Position numbers and translations under genes: made by a program. Shown in pieces: positions 21,969-37,138 of a stretch of 46,927 bases of DNA. The DNA is taken from IMG/VR virus record IMGVR_UViG_3300009146_000004, positions 1 to 46,927 of that record; one strand, 5' to 3'. This DNA comes from a virus. Each line of letters starts with the position of its first letter. Position 1 is the first letter of the stretch. Under the pieces are notes generated by a model. It was not told where the DNA came from. It was given only the letters and a program-made list of their open reading frames with translations, and ran no database searches.

Positions 21969-22229
21969 ATGCCTAAACACACACATAAGTTCATGCGCAT
22001 TCCGGCGAAGAAGACCAACACATGGACGTGCGTACTATGTCCGTGGTTCGTACATGAGGGGCTATCTCACCTAATCCTATCGAAGGACGGGATATGTTGG
22101 AGCTGTGAGGAGCCATTTAGAATGAGCGAAGAGTCAATGAAAGAGGACAAACCACGATGTAGCGAATGTAGAACAGGTCTATCTCAGGACGCAATAACTC
22201 AAATACTCAGAGATAAGGGATTACTATAA
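21969..22229 (+). CDS. Small zinc-binding protein
   Basis: This 86-residue protein starts after AGAAGGAGAATACT. Three C-x2-C pairs (CVLC at 21-24, CWSC, CSEC) plus nearby histidines predict one or two zinc ribbons. The C terminus is helical (SQDAITQILRDKGLL). Its stop overlaps the LAGLIDADG endonuclease start (TAATG). It is one of about a dozen small Cys-rich proteins in the early arm. A role in binding nucleic acid or host proteins is likely but unproven. Confidence 0.7.
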   Translation: MPKHTHKFMRIPAKKTNTWTCVLCPWFVHEGLSHLILSKDGICWSCEEPFRMSEESMKEDKPRCSECRTGLSQDAITQILRDKGLL

Positions 22230-22648
22230 TGTCATACGAGACTAACGTAGCGTGGTGTGCCGGATTCTTTGATGGTGAGGGTCACGTATCGTATCGACGT
22301 CAATATGTACGATCCAATGGAAGGGTAGCAGGCACAATACACGCGACCGTTCCACAAAATAGTGAAAACAAAGAGACATTAGAATTCTTTCAATCTGTTG
22401 TAAGTATGGGTAGAATTAAAGGACCGTATAAAACCAAGAAAGGAAAAACACAACACGTGCTAGTCTTCGGAGTGAAGGAAGTAATGCCACTTCTCATCAT
22501 TCTCAAGCCGTATCTAAAGTGCGAGAAGACAACAGATTTCCAACGAGCCATAGCATTATACGAAATGCATGATTCCAAAGCTACACCAGACGATTACGCC
22601 AGAACAGCACGATGGAAAAAGAAGAAAGGAATATCTGTATTTAGTTAA
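22229..22648 (+). CDS. LAGLIDADG-type homing endonuclease, free-standing
   Basis: A 139-residue protein with one LAGLIDADG-like helix, WCAGFFDGEGHV, at residues 9-20. The catalytic acidic residue of such helices would be D15 or E17. A beta region follows (IHATVPQNSE, VVSMGRIKGP, HVLVFGVKEV) and then helices. One motif per chain means it should act as a dimer. It is not inside a recognisable intron and so behaves as a free-standing mobile endonuclease that cuts alleles lacking it. It is coupled to the upstream zinc protein by TAATG. Confidence 0.8.
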   Translation: MSYETNVAWCAGFFDGEGHVSYRRQYVRSNGRVAGTIHATVPQNSENKETLEFFQSVVSMGRIKGPYKTKKGKTQHVLVFGVKEVMPLLIILKPYLKCEKTTDFQRAIALYEMHDSKATPDDYARTARWKKKKGISVFS

Positions 22649-24572: not shown

Positions 24573-26651
24573 ATGACTAGACAAGAGGCGACTCACTTAC
24601 TCCGAACTGAATTGAACCAACACGGTCTGACGGATTGGTCTGTCCGATTGAATCAGAATCCAGACTCGAAGTTCTTGGGTCTGTGTTCATACAAAGACAA
24701 GTGTATCATCTTGTCTGCGCATCACATCGATATACATCCTACTCCGGATGTAATCAATACAATCCGACACGAGATAGCACACGCGCTCGTGGGCGTGGGT
24801 CATGCTCATGACGCAGTATGGTCATCGAAGGCTAGGGAAGTAGGCTGCGATAACACGCTGCCGTGTTCTAATCTCTCGCTGTCCCCCGCTATCATTGATG
24901 CCATTCGTAGTGGCGCCGATGTAGAGGTAACCTTCGAGGAACAGGTAATCAGGACTCCGAAGTACAACATTACCAGACTACAGGACAAATGCGAACAGTG
25001 TGGTAAGGTCGCTAAGACTGCCTCAGAGAAGACCATCATCATTCAGGCAGAGGATAAGCCGGACCTGAAGTACATCACACTGGAGTGTGGTCATATCCTC
25101 ATTAAGAAAATCCCCAAGGGTACTCCGTTCCACACATTCCAGTCTGGTGGTGATGAATCATGCGCACATGAATGGGTCAAGAACGCCTGTTCATTGTGTG
25201 GTCGCTTCAAACCGTATGATTTCCAACTAGACGGAATGAAGTTCGGCGAAGCGGCATTAGCCGTAAACAATGGAGTAGGCATATTCGATGAGATGGGATT
25301 AGGTAAGACTATCCAAGCCGGAGGGATAGTCAAGTTCAACCCATCATTGTGGCCTACTCTCTGGATAGTCAAGTCCGGTCTGAAGCATCAATTCGCTATG
25401 TTCATTCTCAATTGGCTCGGGAATGAACACATTCCACAGATTATCCACACATCGAAGGATTATCTGGTCCCCGGACTAAAGCACTACATCGTAGGCTACG
25501 ACATGCTAGTGCAGAAGACGCGCACTCTGAAGTCCGGTAAGGTAGTCACGAGCGGATTTACGCCAGAGTCATTCGAGCCGCTCGGCATCAAGTGTGTCGT
25601 ATTAGACGAATGTCAACAGATTAAGAATGTTGATTCTAATCGCACTCACGCAGTCCGACGTATCGTGAAGGGCAAGAAGGTCATCGCACTATCAGGGACT
25701 CCATGGAAGAATCGTGGTTCAGAACTGTTCCCAGTGTTGAACATGCTGGACTACATGAAGTTCCATTCTGAGGAAGCGTTCCGGCGTCAGTGGGTGGATA
25801 CCTATTACGAAGGTAAGTACCTGAAAGAAGGTGGAATACGTCAGCCTGCACGATTCAAGGAACACATTAAGGACATCGTGATTCGCCGTGAGCGAACTGA
25901 GGTTATGAAGGAACTTCCATTAATTAATCGCACTAAGCTCATGATTCAGATGGACCCTGAAGCTGAGTCAGTCTACGATGATGCGGTAGATGAGTTCGTC
26001 AAGTGGTACGAGGAACAAGCCGCAAACATCTCTGGAATGATGATCATTGCGGCCATGCAGAAGATGCGTCATCTAGTCGCACTCGCCAAGATTCCAGCTA
26101 CTCTGGAATATGTAGATGAGTTCGTAGAAGAGACTGACCGTAAGATGGTAGTATTCGCGCATCACAAGGATGTTCAATTCTTCCTCTACGATGAGTTCCA
26201 CAAGAGATACTCGAAGGACTTCCCTGTCCTCAAATTAACATCGGATATGTCAGGCGAAGAGAGATTCCATGCTCAGGAGACGTTTAATAAGAGTCCTCGA
26301 GCACTACTCGTAGCGAGCACACTAGCAGCGGGTGAGGGACTTAACCTACAGACCTGCGCGGATTGTGTGATGCATGAGCGTCAGTGGAATCCTGCTAATG
26401 AGGAACAAGCTGAAGGTAGGTTCATTCGCATCGGTCAAACCGCTACGTCAGTGAACGCAGTCTACGCACACTGCGAGGGACTCACTACCATAGACCCACA
26501 ACTGGATGTGATTGTGGAACGCAAGAGACTACAATTCCACAATGTAATGAACGATGGTGAATACCAGAGATGGAATGAGGACTCACTAATTAAGGAATTA
26601 GTGGATGTCATCATTAGTGCGCACAAGCGTAAGAAGGGTCTAGGTAAGTAA
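24573..26651 (+). CDS. SprT-like metalloprotease fused to SNF2-family helicase
   Basis: A 692-residue fusion. Residues 1-120 are SprT-like: HEIAH at 66-70 with a third ligand H77 is the zinc protease motif. Cysteines at 140, 143, 172, 197, 206 and 209 suggest two zinc ribbons, the first usual after SprT domains. From about 215 an SNF2/superfamily 2 ATPase begins: DEMGLGKT (239-246), DECQ (345-348), SGTPWKN (374-380) and, near the end, AGEGLNLQ and QAEGRFIRIGQ. SprT proteins cut DNA-protein crosslinks and SNF2 motors move along DNA, so one chain could track DNA and clear bound proteins. Both halves look intact. Confidence 0.9.
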   Translation: MTRQEATHLLRTELNQHGLTDWSVRLNQNPDSKFLGLCSYKDKCIILSAHHIDIHPTPDVINTIRHEIAHALVGVGHAHDAVWSSKAREVGCDNTLPCSNLSLSPAIIDAIRSGADVEVTFEEQVIRTPKYNITRLQDKCEQCGKVAKTASEKTIIIQAEDKPDLKYITLECGHILIKKIPKGTPFHTFQSGGDESCAHEWVKNACSLCGRFKPYDFQLDGMKFGEAALAVNNGVGIFDEMGLGKTIQAGGIVKFNPSLWPTLWIVKSGLKHQFAMFILNWLGNEHIPQIIHTSKDYLVPGLKHYIVGYDMLVQKTRTLKSGKVVTSGFTPESFEPLGIKCVVLDECQQIKNVDSNRTHAVRRIVKGKKVIALSGTPWKNRGSELFPVLNMLDYMKFHSEEAFRRQWVDTYYEGKYLKEGGIRQPARFKEHIKDIVIRRERTEVMKELPLINRTKLMIQMDPEAESVYDDAVDEFVKWYEEQAANISGMMIIAAMQKMRHLVALAKIPATLEYVDEFVEETDRKMVVFAHHKDVQFFLYDEFHKRYSKDFPVLKLTSDMSGEERFHAQETFNKSPRALLVASTLAAGEGLNLQTCADCVMHERQWNPANEEQAEGRFIRIGQTATSVNAVYAHCEGLTTIDPQLDVIVERKRLQFHNVMNDGEYQRWNEDSLIKELVDVIISAHKRKKGLGK

Positions 26652-30476: not shown

Positions 30477-30689
30477 ATGCGAATCGATACTATTGAAATC
30501 AGACTACTTGATACTGACCAAACGGATGGTAAGATAGCTCACACTATCAGATATGCGGCCGGAACATGGTCAGTTGATGGTGTGATCTATCCTCGCTACC
30601 TGACACTGATGGACACTATTAGTAAATTCATGTCAGATGAGCGTCGACATGATAGGGAGCGCGATAAGGGGAAGGACAAGGACGAATAA
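30477..30689 (+). CDS. Small early protein with charged tail
   Basis: A 70-residue protein: a beta-rich body (RIDTIEIRLLDTDQTDGKIA, TIRYAAGTWSVDG) ending in a highly charged helix (DERRHDRERDKGKDKDE). It begins after AAGGTGAGCGAAGCGAACC, a 15-base motif that also occurs twice in the divergent control region. Its stop overlaps the Sak4-like start (TAATG), so it probably serves recombination or replication. Confidence 0.6.
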   Translation: MRIDTIEIRLLDTDQTDGKIAHTIRYAAGTWSVDGVIYPRYLTLMDTISKFMSDERRHDRERDKGKDKDE

Positions 30690-31501
30690 TGCCCACAATG
30701 AATGACGTAGACTTCAATGCCCTGTATTGCCTATTCAAAGGCGAGCCGGGCACACGTAAGTCCACTCAAGCACTATCGTTCCCCGGACCACAGTATTGGT
30801 TTTCATGGGATAGGAAGATGAATGGTATCTATCTTCCCATGAAGAAATGGGGAATAGATCCGAAAACCATTACATACGATGACTACGAAGATTGGGCAGC
30901 TCCGAAGAAGAAGTTAGAGCAGCTTCAATTGAATTGTCCATATAAGACTATCATCATCGATAGCATTACATCGATGGCGGATATGACTCTACGACAGACC
31001 ATGCGCGTCAAGTATGGTGGCACGAAGAAGAGTGGCGAAGCTAGTGGTAAGCTAGTCGCGGGTATTGCAGTCAATGAAATCGAAGACTACAATGCTGAGT
31101 CATCCGCACTCAATGAGCTAATTGCGCTGACAAAGGACATCAACAAGTTCCATAAAGTTAATGTCATCCTTATAGCGCATGTCGTTAAAGCAGAATATCG
31201 CGACACGACGAAGAAAACTACGCACATCTCGCGTCAAATCGTGACTGCGGGTAAGAACGTAGCGGCTAAGATTCCGGCATATTGTGGTGAAGTCTATCAC
31301 TTCAATATTAAGTCCGGATTTAGTCCAGAAGCAGGAGGTGAATACTCTCTACTGACTGAGCACACTGGTGATGACTTCGCACGAAGTGGACTGGGATTGG
31401 ATAAGGAAATCGTATTCGGGGATAGACCAATTTACGATACTTACATCAAACCAGCCATCACTGGTGTGATGAAAACATCCGAACCAGCTACGAAGTTCTA
31501 A
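30689..31501 (+). CDS. Sak4-like RecA-fold recombinase (AAA_24)
   Basis: A 270-residue RecA-fold ATPase. The P-loop is GEPGTRKST at 18-26, with Arg at 23 where most P-loops have Gly. The Walker B is KTIIIDS ending at D91. The strand VNVILIAHVVKAEYRD near 165 is the sensor region. This size and order match phage Sak4-type single-strand annealing and recombination proteins. The next gene looks like its usual ssDNA-binding partner. Confidence 0.78.
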   Translation: MPTMNDVDFNALYCLFKGEPGTRKSTQALSFPGPQYWFSWDRKMNGIYLPMKKWGIDPKTITYDDYEDWAAPKKKLEQLQLNCPYKTIIIDSITSMADMTLRQTMRVKYGGTKKSGEASGKLVAGIAVNEIEDYNAESSALNELIALTKDINKFHKVNVILIAHVVKAEYRDTTKKTTHISRQIVTAGKNVAAKIPAYCGEVYHFNIKSGFSPEAGGEYSLLTEHTGDDFARSGLGLDKEIVFGDRPIYDTYIKPAITGVMKTSEPATKF

Positions 31502-31554: not shown

Positions 31555-31950
31555 ATGCCAGTAATCAGTTTCAGCGAAGCGGATATGAGCCGGGGTAAGA
31601 TCGTGGAACCCGCGTGGTACGTAATGACCATCAATAGCATTGGTGATGGTATCCCATCGAAGGATGGTGGATCTACCAACTACAATGTTGAGGGTGTCAT
31701 CGTACGGAATGCGGATACCGGCGATGAGACATTCAAGGGTACTACCCTTCAGTGGAATTTCAATAGCAAAGCACTGGGCTTCGCTAAGGGATTCCTCGAA
31801 TCGTTCGGCGTAGGTGTGGAGCTGAATAAGCGATACGAACTCAAGTCTGCCGAAGGTAAGCAGCTTGATGTGTTCGTAGAGAATGACCAGTGGCAGGGAC
31901 GTGTTGTGAATCGTATTAATCACAAGTATCGTCCTCTGCGCACTGCGTAG
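31555..31950 (+). CDS. Probable ssDNA-binding protein (partner of Sak4-like protein)
   Basis: This 131-residue protein is beta-rich (PAWYVMTINSIGDGIPSKDG, NYNVEGVIVRNADTG, KRYELKSAEGKQLDVFVEND) like an OB-fold or DUF669-type protein. Such small proteins commonly follow Sak4/RecT-type genes in phages and coat single strands. It lacks the acidic DDDIPF tip of bacterial SSB. The polymerase carries that tip instead. Function is by context. Confidence 0.6.
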   Translation: MPVISFSEADMSRGKIVEPAWYVMTINSIGDGIPSKDGGSTNYNVEGVIVRNADTGDETFKGTTLQWNFNSKALGFAKGFLESFGVGVELNKRYELKSAEGKQLDVFVENDQWQGRVVNRINHKYRPLRTA

Positions 31951-32041: not shown

Positions 32042-32102
32042 CCTTTTAGTAATACAAACAAGTCACGGCTACACTATAGCTAGCCCAACTGGAGAGTGTG
32101 TG

Positions 32103-32351
32103 ATGATGTACTACATGAACGAGATGGATTCGGATATGGTAGAAGATGTCGATGATGGTAAGGTTCCTATCGATATCGATCCAGATGATGATGATGTCGA
32201 AGATGATCTCGAAGACGAAGTCGAAGACGAAGAAGATGACTTCGAGGACGAGGACGATCCTGAAGACGAGGACGAGGAAGAACTCGAAAAAGATGAAGAT
32301 TCATTAGATGACCCGAAGGAAGATTCAGAAATTACTGGTACCTCTGAGTAG
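32103..32351 (+). CDS. Extremely acidic protein, DNA-mimic candidate
   Basis: 82 residues from the ATG at 32103, six bases after GGAGAG. An in-frame GTG at 32100 and ATG at 32106 are alternatives. Forty-seven residues are D or E, three are K and none is R. Acidic runs cover residues 8-77. This composition is seen in proteins that mimic DNA and block host DNA-binding enzymes, for example Ocr-type restriction inhibitors. It has its own promoter, leader hairpin and terminator, unlike its operon neighbours. A chaperone or decoy role is inferred from charge alone. Confidence 0.65.
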   Translation: MMYYMNEMDSDMVEDVDDGKVPIDIDPDDDDVEDDLEDEVEDEEDDFEDEDDPEDEDEEELEKDEDSLDDPKEDSEITGTSE

Positions 32352-32994: not shown

Positions 32995-33192
32995 ATGAAT
33001 GAGACTAAATTCAAACCAAATGATTATGTCCGAATGAAAGTTGGATCTGTCTACTACTATGGTCAGATTACTATAGTAAGAAAAGATGGTCATTGTAAAG
33101 TCATGTTTCAAGATGAGAACGCACCTGACTATTGGTATTATCCTTCAAATGAACTTGAATTAATGACTCCGGAGGATACGAAAGAAACATAA
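32995..33192 (+). CDS. Small SH3/Tudor-like beta protein
   Basis: This 65-residue protein has the layout FKPNDYVRMKVGSVYYYGQI, TIVRKDGHCKVMF, APDYWYYPSNELELM, which suggests a five-stranded SH3 or Tudor-like barrel. Its stop overlaps the polymerase start (TAATG), so it may be made in fixed ratio with the polymerase. The assignment is by pattern only. Confidence 0.6.
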   Translation: MNETKFKPNDYVRMKVGSVYYYGQITIVRKDGHCKVMFQDENAPDYWYYPSNELELMTPEDTKET

Positions 33193-35816
33193 TGAATATC
33201 AGCGATTACGTACCGGGAGTCGGAGCAATCGGAGCCAAGTTAATGATACTTGGTGACTCCCCATCTCGTGAAGATGTGAATGCTAAACGACCCTTTACGG
33301 GTTCGGTAGGTAGAGAACTAGATAAGCTACTGAGAGAGGCTGGCATATCACGAGCTGCATGTTGGCTCACTAACGTATCGAAGTATCAAGTTCCTACGAA
33401 CATGGGGAAGAAGAAGCTACCATTTCAGATTCGAGCGCGTGATGCCGGTATCGATGTAGACCAACAATTAGCGGAACTAAGGACTGAAGTCAATGAAGTC
33501 AAGCCGAACACTATCCTTGCTCTCAGTGGGACTTCTCTATGGGCACTTTCCGGTAAGACCAAAATTAACGACCTTCGAGGCTCCTTACAGTGGGGAATGG
33601 GCACGAAATTTGTGTCTACCTATCATCCCAGGGATCTGCTATTTAGTGCTAACAGTGGAGAAATTCGAGGGTATTGGAATCGTCAAGTAATGATTCACGA
33701 TATGAAGCGCGCATTCGATGAGAGCTTTAGTCCTGCACTAGAACTACCGCATCGAACGCTTCAGATATGCCGTAATTCAGGTGAACTATTTGAGTTCCTT
33801 GAAAAGTATAAAGACTATCGAAAGATGAGTACAGACGTAGAAGCAGGAGGACATGGACTCCCAATATGTATAGGAATCGCATTCACTAAAGGTCATGGAA
33901 TGACGGTCCCACTATGGAATAGAGATGGTATATCGACTATACCAGACTCAGACATTGGAACTATATGGGCTATGATGGCTCAGACTCTATGGGAGAAAGA
34001 CATTGTCGGACAAAACTTCAATTACGATCGAGATAAACTACGAAGGCTCGGATTCGCTATCCAACGAATATATTCAGATACATTGCTCAAGGCATTCGCA
34101 ATTAATCCTGAACTACCGAAACGGTTGGCTTTTCTTACAAGTATATACACCAGAGAGCCATTCTACAAAGATGAGGGTATGTACGAAGGGAGCACTAGAG
34201 ATCTCCTGCTCGGATGCGCACGAGACGCTTGTGTCACGTATGAAATAGATGAAGCGATGGATGCGGACTTAGAGGAGTTAGGGGTAAGGAAGTTCTATGA
34301 CAACTTCCTAATGAAGCTACCGGACTTCTATGGAGAAATCGAGAATAATGGATTCGTCGTTAATAGACAGAGACGAAAGGAACTAATCGAAAAGTATGTA
34401 GAATGGGATGAAAGACTCCGATTCGAGATGTGGCAGATTGCAGGAGAGGACATTAATGTAGGCTCTCCACTTCAAGTCTCTTCATTTCTATTCGATATAT
34501 GGAAGTTGCCTAGACGACAAGGAGTAGGTGAAGAGGAATTAACAGCATTACTGAATCTGAAGCATGGAGTTAAGGATGAGGGAATGCGCGCTTGGATCGA
34601 GAAATGTCTAGAGAGACGGCGCGTAAAGAAGACTATTAGTACATACTTATCAGCTATACCCGACTACGATGGTAAGATGCGCACCACCTGTTTCATGTGC
34701 TTAGAGACGGGTAGGACTAGTACATCGCAGCAGAACCCTCCGATTAGGCCCCTTGTAGATGTCGTAGGCAAGGGTAAAAAAGTAGATATGAAGCCGATGG
34801 GAACGGCATTCCAAGTATTCACCAAACATGGGGATATTGGGGCAGATGTCCGTTCAATGTATGAACCCGATCCTGGGTTCTTATTCGTCCAACTAGACTC
34901 AAGTCAAGCCGAAGCGCGCGTCGTATTCAATCTGGCGACCGATGAACAGGCATTAAAGGATATAGATGAACATGACTATCACGCACTTACTGCATCGTGG
35001 TTTTTCGGCGGCAAGGAAGAGGATTATTCGAAGAAGATACTTGGATATGAATCTCCCATTAGATTCGCAGGGAAGACTCTACGTCATGCGGGCCATCTTG
35101 GCGCAGGCCCAAGACGAGCAGCTACAGAACTCAATACTCAAGCACGGAAGTATAAGATTCCACTTAAGATCGATGATTCAATTGCTGAACGTGCGTTGAA
35201 GATATTCCACTCACGTCAACCACTAATACAGAGGGTATTCCATCATGAAGTCATCGAATGTCTCAAACGAAATAGACAACTTATTGCACCCCTCCCCTGG
35301 GGGATCGATGCAGAACGAGGTGGTGTACGTATATTTTACGAAAGGTGGGGGGATGAGTTATTCCGAGAAGCCCTTGCCTATCTACCCCAACGAGCTGTTA
35401 CTGATAATACCAAAGCTGCTGGTATTAGAATTAAAAAGCAACGACCAGATGCGAGAATCATTCTCGAAGCGCATGATGCACTTCTTTTTGCTGTACGAAG
35501 AGACTCCGTAGACGAGTTCATTCCCATAGCAAAGAAGGAGATGGAGCGTCCTATTAACTTCAGTGCATGTAGCCTACCAAGACGTTTTCTGAAGATACCG
35601 TGCGATGTCGAGGTAGGCGAGAACTATCAAGAGTTAAGGAAATACAAGGGAGTATCGGAGCCGATTAAAACGGAGCCAATTGTTCCGATTAAGGTAAGAC
35701 CATTAACCGTGACTGAACAGTTTGAGGTAACTGATTACGAAGCGCGCGAAAACATGTATGAGGAACGAGAGCGAGCTGCGATGAAATCAATTAAAGATGA
35801 TGATATTCCTTTCTAG
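33192..35816 (+). CDS. polA-like: DNA polymerase A fused to UDG-like domain, with SSB-like C-terminal tip
   Basis: 874 residues. Residues 15-175 resemble a family 4 uracil-DNA glycosylase: GDSPS (21-25), PFTG (34-37), TN (60-61) and TYHPRDLL (143-150). A 3'-5' exonuclease follows with D215/E217, D279 and D345. The polymerase has motif A DSSQAEAR (569-576), motif B R624/K628 and motif C HDA (761-763). In motif B, H632 and L636 replace the Phe and Tyr of E. coli Pol I. In motif C the usual HDE is HDA, but the catalytic Asp is kept. The protein ends DDDIPF, like bacterial SSB. It is the replicative polymerase. Confidence 0.93.
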   Translation: MNISDYVPGVGAIGAKLMILGDSPSREDVNAKRPFTGSVGRELDKLLREAGISRAACWLTNVSKYQVPTNMGKKKLPFQIRARDAGIDVDQQLAELRTEVNEVKPNTILALSGTSLWALSGKTKINDLRGSLQWGMGTKFVSTYHPRDLLFSANSGEIRGYWNRQVMIHDMKRAFDESFSPALELPHRTLQICRNSGELFEFLEKYKDYRKMSTDVEAGGHGLPICIGIAFTKGHGMTVPLWNRDGISTIPDSDIGTIWAMMAQTLWEKDIVGQNFNYDRDKLRRLGFAIQRIYSDTLLKAFAINPELPKRLAFLTSIYTREPFYKDEGMYEGSTRDLLLGCARDACVTYEIDEAMDADLEELGVRKFYDNFLMKLPDFYGEIENNGFVVNRQRRKELIEKYVEWDERLRFEMWQIAGEDINVGSPLQVSSFLFDIWKLPRRQGVGEEELTALLNLKHGVKDEGMRAWIEKCLERRRVKKTISTYLSAIPDYDGKMRTTCFMCLETGRTSTSQQNPPIRPLVDVVGKGKKVDMKPMGTAFQVFTKHGDIGADVRSMYEPDPGFLFVQLDSSQAEARVVFNLATDEQALKDIDEHDYHALTASWFFGGKEEDYSKKILGYESPIRFAGKTLRHAGHLGAGPRRAATELNTQARKYKIPLKIDDSIAERALKIFHSRQPLIQRVFHHEVIECLKRNRQLIAPLPWGIDAERGGVRIFYERWGDELFREALAYLPQRAVTDNTKAAGIRIKKQRPDARIILEAHDALLFAVRRDSVDEFIPIAKKEMERPINFSACSLPRRFLKIPCDVEVGENYQELRKYKGVSEPIKTEPIVPIKVRPLTVTEQFEVTDYEARENMYEERERAAMKSIKDDDIPF

Positions 35817-35824
35817 GTTTTCAG

Positions 35825-37138
35825 ATGATAGTTCTGGAAACTTTAGAGACTGGAACAGGGATGACATGGCTGGATAGATTATTATCTCAACACTCCGAAT
35901 TAGAGTCACCCACCAATTTCTGGAGATGGGCCGGAATAGCCGCCATATCCGCGATTGTGAAAGACAATGTTTGGATGGACCGGCAGATACACAACCTCTA
36001 TCCGAACATCTACGTGATGCTCCATGCAGATTCGGGCCTAAAGAAAGGGCCACCAATCAGTATGGCGAAACAGTTAGTGCGCGCAGTAAACAACACGCGC
36101 ATCATCTCGGGTAGGTCGAGTATTCAGGGTATTCTCAAGGAATTAGGAACCGCGCAAACACAGCCGGGAGGTAAAATAAATGCAAAATCCAACGCATTCA
36201 TCTGCAGCAGCGAGCTTACTTCTTCGATTGTGGAGGATAAAGTTGCTACGGACATTCTTACGGATTTGTACGACAGACAGTACAACATAGGAGAGTGGCG
36301 TTCCCTACTGAAGATGGAACAGTTCAATCTTAAAGACCCTACCATCACAATGTTAACCGCAACTAATGAGGCACACTCAAATGACTTCTTCGGTAAAAAG
36401 GACATTCACGGGGGTTATTTCGCCCGAACCTTTGTCATTTCTGAGTCCAAAAGAAATAGAGCTAATTCTCTTCTTGTACCTCTCATTAATCCTCCCAAAT
36501 ACTCAGAACTCACAGACTATCTTAAGGAAATCTCCACGCTCACAGGTCCGTTTAGGCCCCTAGCATCACAGACTCAAGATGATGAGTATACGATCCCGCA
36601 CATTGAACCAGAGTCAGGTGTAACGAATTACTTTAATGAGGCGGGTCTGATATACCAACGATGGTATGACGATTTCATCGATCAGATGCAGACTCAGGAC
36701 TGGAAAGATGAAACTGGCACAATGAATAGATTCGGCGACTCTGTATTGAAGGTCGCCATGCTTCTATCATTGGCTCGTAGTCCTGAGCTTTACATCGATG
36801 CGGATAGCATGAACCTAGCGATTCAATACTGTGAACGTCTAGTGGGTAATGTGAGGGAAATGACTCATGGAAAAAAGGGACTATCGGAAGCGAAGAACAT
36901 CAAAAACCTGATTATGGCGGAACTATTAGCGCGTGAGACACATCAGATGTCTCGCACAATGTTACTAAAACGAATGTGGGCACACTACAAAGAAGCTCAG
37001 GAAATGGATGACATTATGCTGAGTTTCGATCAGGCGGGTATGATTAAAACTGAGACAATCGGGAATCAGATCATCTACGTCATGCCAGAGAACATGGTAA
37101 CTGAACTCAGGCGACACTACTCAGGGAAGAACCGATGA
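35825..37138 (+). CDS. DUF3987-like replicative helicase/primase protein
   Basis: A 437-residue protein. ESPTNFWRWAGIAAISAIVK at residues 27-46 and YVMLHADSGLKKGPPISMAK, a P-loop-like turn, are the kind of sequence found in DUF3987-type phage and plasmid replication proteins. An acidic strand, FICSSEL, and a helical C terminus follow. It lies directly after the polymerase. Helicase or primase-helper activity is probable. The nucleotide-binding loop is degenerate. Confidence 0.6.
   Translation: MIVLETLETGTGMTWLDRLLSQHSELESPTNFWRWAGIAAISAIVKDNVWMDRQIHNLYPNIYVMLHADSGLKKGPPISMAKQLVRAVNNTRIISGRSSIQGILKELGTAQTQPGGKINAKSNAFICSSELTSSIVEDKVATDILTDLYDRQYNIGEWRSLLKMEQFNLKDPTITMLTATNEAHSNDFFGKKDIHGGYFARTFVISESKRNRANSLLVPLINPPKYSELTDYLKEISTLTGPFRPLASQTQDDEYTIPHIEPESGVTNYFNEAGLIYQRWYDDFIDQMQTQDWKDETGTMNRFGDSVLKVAMLLSLARSPELYIDADSMNLAIQYCERLVGNVREMTHGKKGLSEAKNIKNLIMAELLARETHQMSRTMLLKRMWAHYKEAQEMDDIMLSFDQAGMIKTETIGNQIIYVMPENMVTELRRHYSGKNR

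Follow-up and report, generated by a model that had tools for sequence, protein, structure and literature searches.

Among the recruitment handles of bacterial genome maintenance, none has been studied better than the acidic C-terminal tip of SSB, which has been viewed as a feature of SSB proteins. In phage T7, acidic C-terminal tails ending in phenylalanine, those of gp2.5 and gp4, join the parts of the replisome. To our knowledge, no DNA polymerase has been described with an SSB tip; we found no description of one on a phage polymerase in the open-access literature, which is a subset and hence weak evidence. In the receptors of the SSB tip, the terminal phenylalanine enters a hydrophobic pocket, the carboxylate meets a basic lip and the aspartates lie along a basic ridge; deletion of the phenylalanine or a proline-to-serine exchange destroys binding, and the linker is a spacer of free sequence (PMC10164576). 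Among phages, HK620 encodes an SSB whose tail, NDYPPF, recruits the phage Sak4 protein (PMC5928155).

Our analysis concerns a DNA polymerase attributed to a soil phage, encoded in a 46,927-bp IMG/VR virus record, the whole of which is called the window here. The enzyme is composed of a UDG-like domain, a 3'-5' exonuclease region, a family-A polymerase and a flexible tail, and its features are as follows.

33192–35816, + strand: phage DNA polymerase of 874 aa, from the ORF list
33213–33650, + strand: UDG-superfamily domain, aa 8–153 (Pfam PF03167, 1.1e-16)
34383–35630, + strand: family-A polymerase domain DNA_pol_A, aa 398–813 (Pfam PF00476, 1.2e-22)
35631–35813, + strand: C-terminal tail past the polymerase fold, aa 814–874
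35706–35723, + strand: tail element TVTEQF, aa 839–844, present in most relatives, tip-bearing or tipless
35796–35813, + strand: SSB-Ct-type tip DDDIPF, aa 869–874, read from the sequence

The bit scores for PF00476 (80.8 against a gathering score of 34.3) and PF03167 (61.6 against 24.3) place the enzyme among the UDG-like and family-A proteins, and it matches the DNA polymerases of PHROG 17 at 4.3e-62. The SPO1 gp31-type UDG–polymerase fusions match residues 9–393 at 22–25% identity and are distant. The protein ends in ...AAMKSIKDDDIPF, that is ...KSIKDDDIPF, and a TAG stop follows at 35814–35816, just as the initial annotation had read it. Its second observation, a long tail beyond the catalytic part, also holds, since DNA_pol_A ends at residue 813 by the Pfam boundaries and about 60 residues follow. 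In an AlphaFold2 model (50 relatives) the body is confident and pLDDT falls below 50 at residues 821–853 and 866–874, which suggests that a flexible segment, predicted to be disordered as the SSB linker is, connects the tip to the body. The last six residues are identical to those of the bacterial SSB-Ct (E. coli ...DDDIPF), which likewise combines a variable disordered spacer with a strict terminal P-F.

Homologues of the polymerase were drawn from viral contigs, and 18 distinct ones, 73–100% identical to the window polymerase, end in DIPF. In C-terminal register these four residues do not vary among the 18 enzymes, and two to three different codons are used at each position; positions -5 and -6 are acidic in most of them, and the linker upstream is hypervariable. 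Over all pairs, the DIPF codons differ by 320 synonymous and 0 nonsynonymous changes, whereas the linker differs by 129 synonymous and 1866 nonsynonymous changes; the pairs are phylogenetically non-independent, yet the contrast is absolute. Across 26 near-full genomes, with ORFs counted from 45 aa upward, D[ILVM]PF ends 14 of 6017 against 0.15 expected from composition, an enrichment of about 90-fold, and all 14 encode either the polymerase or a small tip protein described below. Judged by the codon comparison, the tip is maintained by strict purifying selection. A chance ending is thereby ruled out, at both the codon and the ORF-end level. More broadly, a chance ending or a recombination relic devoid of function today is highly improbable: the tip is missing from many close relatives, as such a remnant might be, but a relic would not be expected to lack any nonsynonymous change at DIPF beside a strongly diverged linker, nor to be enriched in polymerase-linked proteins only.

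The polymerase end thus carries acidic residues, a hydrophobic residue and P-F at a free alpha-carboxylate (DDDIPF, then the stop), a disordered spacer of unconstrained sequence between the folded body and the tip, and terminal residues under selection. Because this is the same constraint pattern as in the SSB tail, we consider it very likely, as far as sequence can tell, that the tail is an SSB-Ct-type docking peptide. Imitation of the SSB tip by the polymerase, as proposed in the initial annotation, is consequently supported at the level of sequence, with DIPF invariant and the preceding acidic residues mostly kept. In some tip-bearing members the residues at -5 and -6 are replaced by K, Q or P, and the affinity of those members for the classic pocket may therefore be reduced.

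Not all related polymerases have the tip. It is missing from about 29 distinct close relatives in the window's clade, whose polymerases are 71–78% identical to that of the window, and likewise from the relatives read over their whole length, Desulfofustis phage LS06, ctMlz233, Mel-JY34 and Kuura. The tipless polymerases are about 25 residues shorter and end at about residue 822–859, mostly right after the element [ST]xTE[QER]F and otherwise just before it. The survey of related C termini, the check that the initial annotation had called for, thus bears out one half of what it had named as a refutation: tipless close homologues exist, but their termini are not random. Relocation of the tip to another gene was rejected, since no ORF of the near-complete tipless genomes ends in D[ILVM]PF; the relaxed pattern [DEKN][ILVM]PF gave only scattered matches in the tipless genomes, at about the control level. 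As about 29 close relatives are tipless and the near-complete genomes among them hold no substitute, the tip is a facultative module. A comparison of 9 tip-bearing with 12 tipless genomes revealed no convincing gene family that predicts the presence of the tip; the best candidate (uncorrected P 0.0015) is a small ORF mostly confined to one clade.

Two further observations were made around the polymerase 3' end. An element of the form [ST][IVPL]TE[QER]F is common to most polymerases regardless of the tip, its phenylalanine (F844 in the window enzyme) hardly varies (alignment A3), and it might dock a universal partner as a second motif of this kind. Several tipless relatives (L017, L018, L022, L040 and L041) have ORFs of 125–150 aa, HNH-endonuclease-like by eye, inserted just downstream of the polymerase, between it and the DUF3987 gene.

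More distant relatives, with polymerases 57–62% identical to that of the window, together with L044 and L045 at 71–72%, have a tipless polymerase and bear the tip on a separate downstream ORF of 58–79 aa. Examples of this small tip protein, besides about 20 others, are the following.

L044, 8607–8828: small tip protein
L075, 4408–4632: small tip protein
L240, 5139–5354: small tip protein

These proteins end in DDDIPF, NDDIPF, DEDIPF, GDLPF, GELPF or GNLPF, and once in YDLPL. The usual place of the ORF is directly after the polymerase gene, and its start frequently overlaps the polymerase stop codon; others lie about 165–320 nt from the polymerase, and a few lie at 0.8–1.7 kb. The bodies of the small proteins are homologous, since a profile lacking the tip columns still retrieves the family, members outside the training set among them (L141 at 2e-12, L061 at 2e-7, L060 at 3e-6 and L055 at 6e-4). 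The tip is the most conserved part of the protein (alignment A6). The AlphaFold2 model, with a mean pLDDT of 88, shows a beta-hairpin leading into a long helix, with a loose tip at the end. No match beyond chance was obtained in Pfam or PHROG, none at E<0.001 among PDB or viral models, and no homologue among cultured phages. We regard these beta-hairpin/helix proteins with an SSB-type tip as a new family.

The two carriers did not occur together in any of the genomes examined, and the family profile found no small tip protein in the searched genomes of the window's clade, tip-bearing or tipless. A 62-kb record, IMGVR_UViG_3300036851_000016 (L228, L239), contains two different polymerases and two tip proteins and probably represents two phages joined in assembly. 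That the polymerase tail derives from a former fusion with the small protein was also considered and rejected, since a profile of the helix scores the tails no better than shuffles, and the tip alone is therefore common to both carriers. In the simplest reading, the tip is of use in association with the polymerase, whichever of the two carriers provides it, and the small protein may bind the polymerase or serve it as an accessory. Bacterial SSB is an OB-fold ssDNA-binding tetramer, whereas the tip is borne here by a polymerase or a small polymerase-linked protein, with one tip per polypeptide; the Pfam domains of the polymerase are UDG and DNA_pol_A only and the small carrier is a beta-hairpin plus helix, so that neither has an OB fold.

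On a maximum-likelihood tree, the polymerase tip requires 8 changes, at least 2 of them forced by well-supported branches, and the small-protein tip requires 9, at least 8 of them so forced. We read this pattern as repeated loss or exchange of the tip. Loss is illustrated by L250 (5154–5441), in which the 5' part of the small tip protein gene is identical to that of L243 (5154–5363) and the tip-encoding end is replaced at a deletion junction, although an assembly error or a chimera is possible in this case.

One explanation of what the tip does is intramolecular: the acidic tip would occupy the polymerase's own DNA-binding groove, control access to it and so inhibit the enzyme, with no partner involved. 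The polymerase tail is flexible in the model, and the SSB tail is reported to make weak contact with its own DNA-binding site in work cited in PMC5928155. Nevertheless, an effect of charge would not require an invariant I-P-F, and the tip of the small protein has no covalent attachment to the polymerase, and we consider autoinhibition improbable. A decoy function, in which host SSB partners would be titrated or blocked by the tip instead of being recruited to the phage fork, is likewise unlikely. A freestanding small tip protein could be overproduced as a competitor, but an enzyme of 97 kDa would hardly titrate partners away from SSB, an abundant tetramer, and the small gene usually lies beside the polymerase, often overlapping its stop, an arrangement that suggests coupled synthesis more than overproduction.

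Recruitment of a partner by the docking peptide is the reading that we favor. DDDIPF would function as an SSB-Ct-type docking peptide at the end of a disordered tether, about 50 residues long, and would bring to the polymerase a protein with an SSB-tip pocket, i.e. a hydrophobic pocket with a basic lip, to which we infer that the tip binds. The tip is linked to the polymerase gene in two alternative ways, being part of the enzyme or of the small adjacent protein, and recruitment would take place during phage DNA synthesis or fork repair. That the docking peptide holds a partner at the phage polymerase in this manner seems likely to us. The partner would be a host SSB-interacting protein (PriA, RecQ, RecO, RecJ, exonuclease I, or one of the host Ung/DnaG kind) or the phage's own Sak4-like ATPase. 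The neighbouring genes that bear on this choice are listed below.

30689–31501, + strand: Sak4-like AAA_24 ATPase (Pfam AAA_24, 2.8e-9; PHROG 124 Sak4-like, 3e-18)
31555–31950, + strand: conserved 131-aa protein, taken for an SSB in the initial annotation
35825–37138, + strand: DUF3987/primase-like protein (Pfam DUF3987, 3.6e-8; PHROG 14296 DNA primase)

The DUF3987 gene adjoins the polymerase gene on its 3' side; distant relatives usually have the small tip protein in between. As for the 131-aa protein, the tip is absent from it and from about 80 distinct homologues, so the claim that the phage's own ssDNA-binding protein lacks the tip is right about the tip. The identification as an SSB received no support from Pfam in 15 members, nor from PHROGs.

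The Sak4-like ATPase is a candidate phage-encoded receptor of the tip. If the receptor is encoded by the phage, the tip would be an internal connector of the replisome, likeliest on this ATPase, and would couple synthesis to annealing or recombination. The gene is present in nearly all genomes of the group, the linkage of the tip to the polymerase gene suits a fixed contact within the replisome, and the Sak4 of HK620 needs the SSB tail NDYPPF to reach SSB-covered DNA (PMC5928155). The HK620-type phages resemble the present ones in that a phage-encoded SSB-type tip and a Sak4-like gene occur in the same genome; however, the SSB carries the tip in the former, whereas here the polymerase carries it and the candidate SSB-like protein is tipless. 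The tails of T7 gp2.5 and gp4 offer a similar precedent for a replisome connector, being acidic and C-terminal with a terminal aromatic residue as here, but the T7 polymerase is the receptor rather than the carrier, and the tail sequence is not DDDIPF. Against a phage receptor, the Sak4-like and DUF3987 genes are equally frequent in the tipless genomes, where such a receptor would need to function in the absence of the tip, and the tip is the bacterial SSB consensus, not a private sequence. We therefore consider a phage-encoded receptor possible but doubtful. We lean slightly toward a host partner, in view of the bacterial consensus that the tip follows and of the tipless genomes that also have the Sak4-like gene. 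A search for the host by genome scan gave one distant and uninformative match.

Other features of the window were noted in passing. The ORF at 32100–32351 encodes 83 aa, nearly all Asp or Glu, and would, if real, be a hyperacidic DNA-mimic-like protein. The region 24573–26651 encodes a SprT-like domain fused to an SNF2-type helicase according to Pfam, and a LAGLIDADG-endonuclease-like ORF lies at 22229–22648, under the Pfam cut-off.

Taken as a whole, the interpretation in the initial annotation is partly supported: the imitation of the SSB tip by sequence, while recruitment or titration of host SSB partners is a hypothesis. The peptide is of a known kind; its carriers are new, as the SSB tip is borne here by a DNA polymerase and, in related phages, by a small protein encoded beside the polymerase. 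This study also points to a new family of small proteins as probable polymerase accessories, and it offers a simple way to test, with peptides, how phage replication factors attach to repair proteins of the host or the phage. We tentatively suggest that phages may connect their polymerase to the host SSB interactome in a modular way, by means of a tip detached from SSB and placed on the polymerase or on a dedicated small beta-hairpin/helix subunit encoded next to it. If this is true, host SSB-dependent proteins would reach phage DNA synthesis without a tip-bearing phage SSB.
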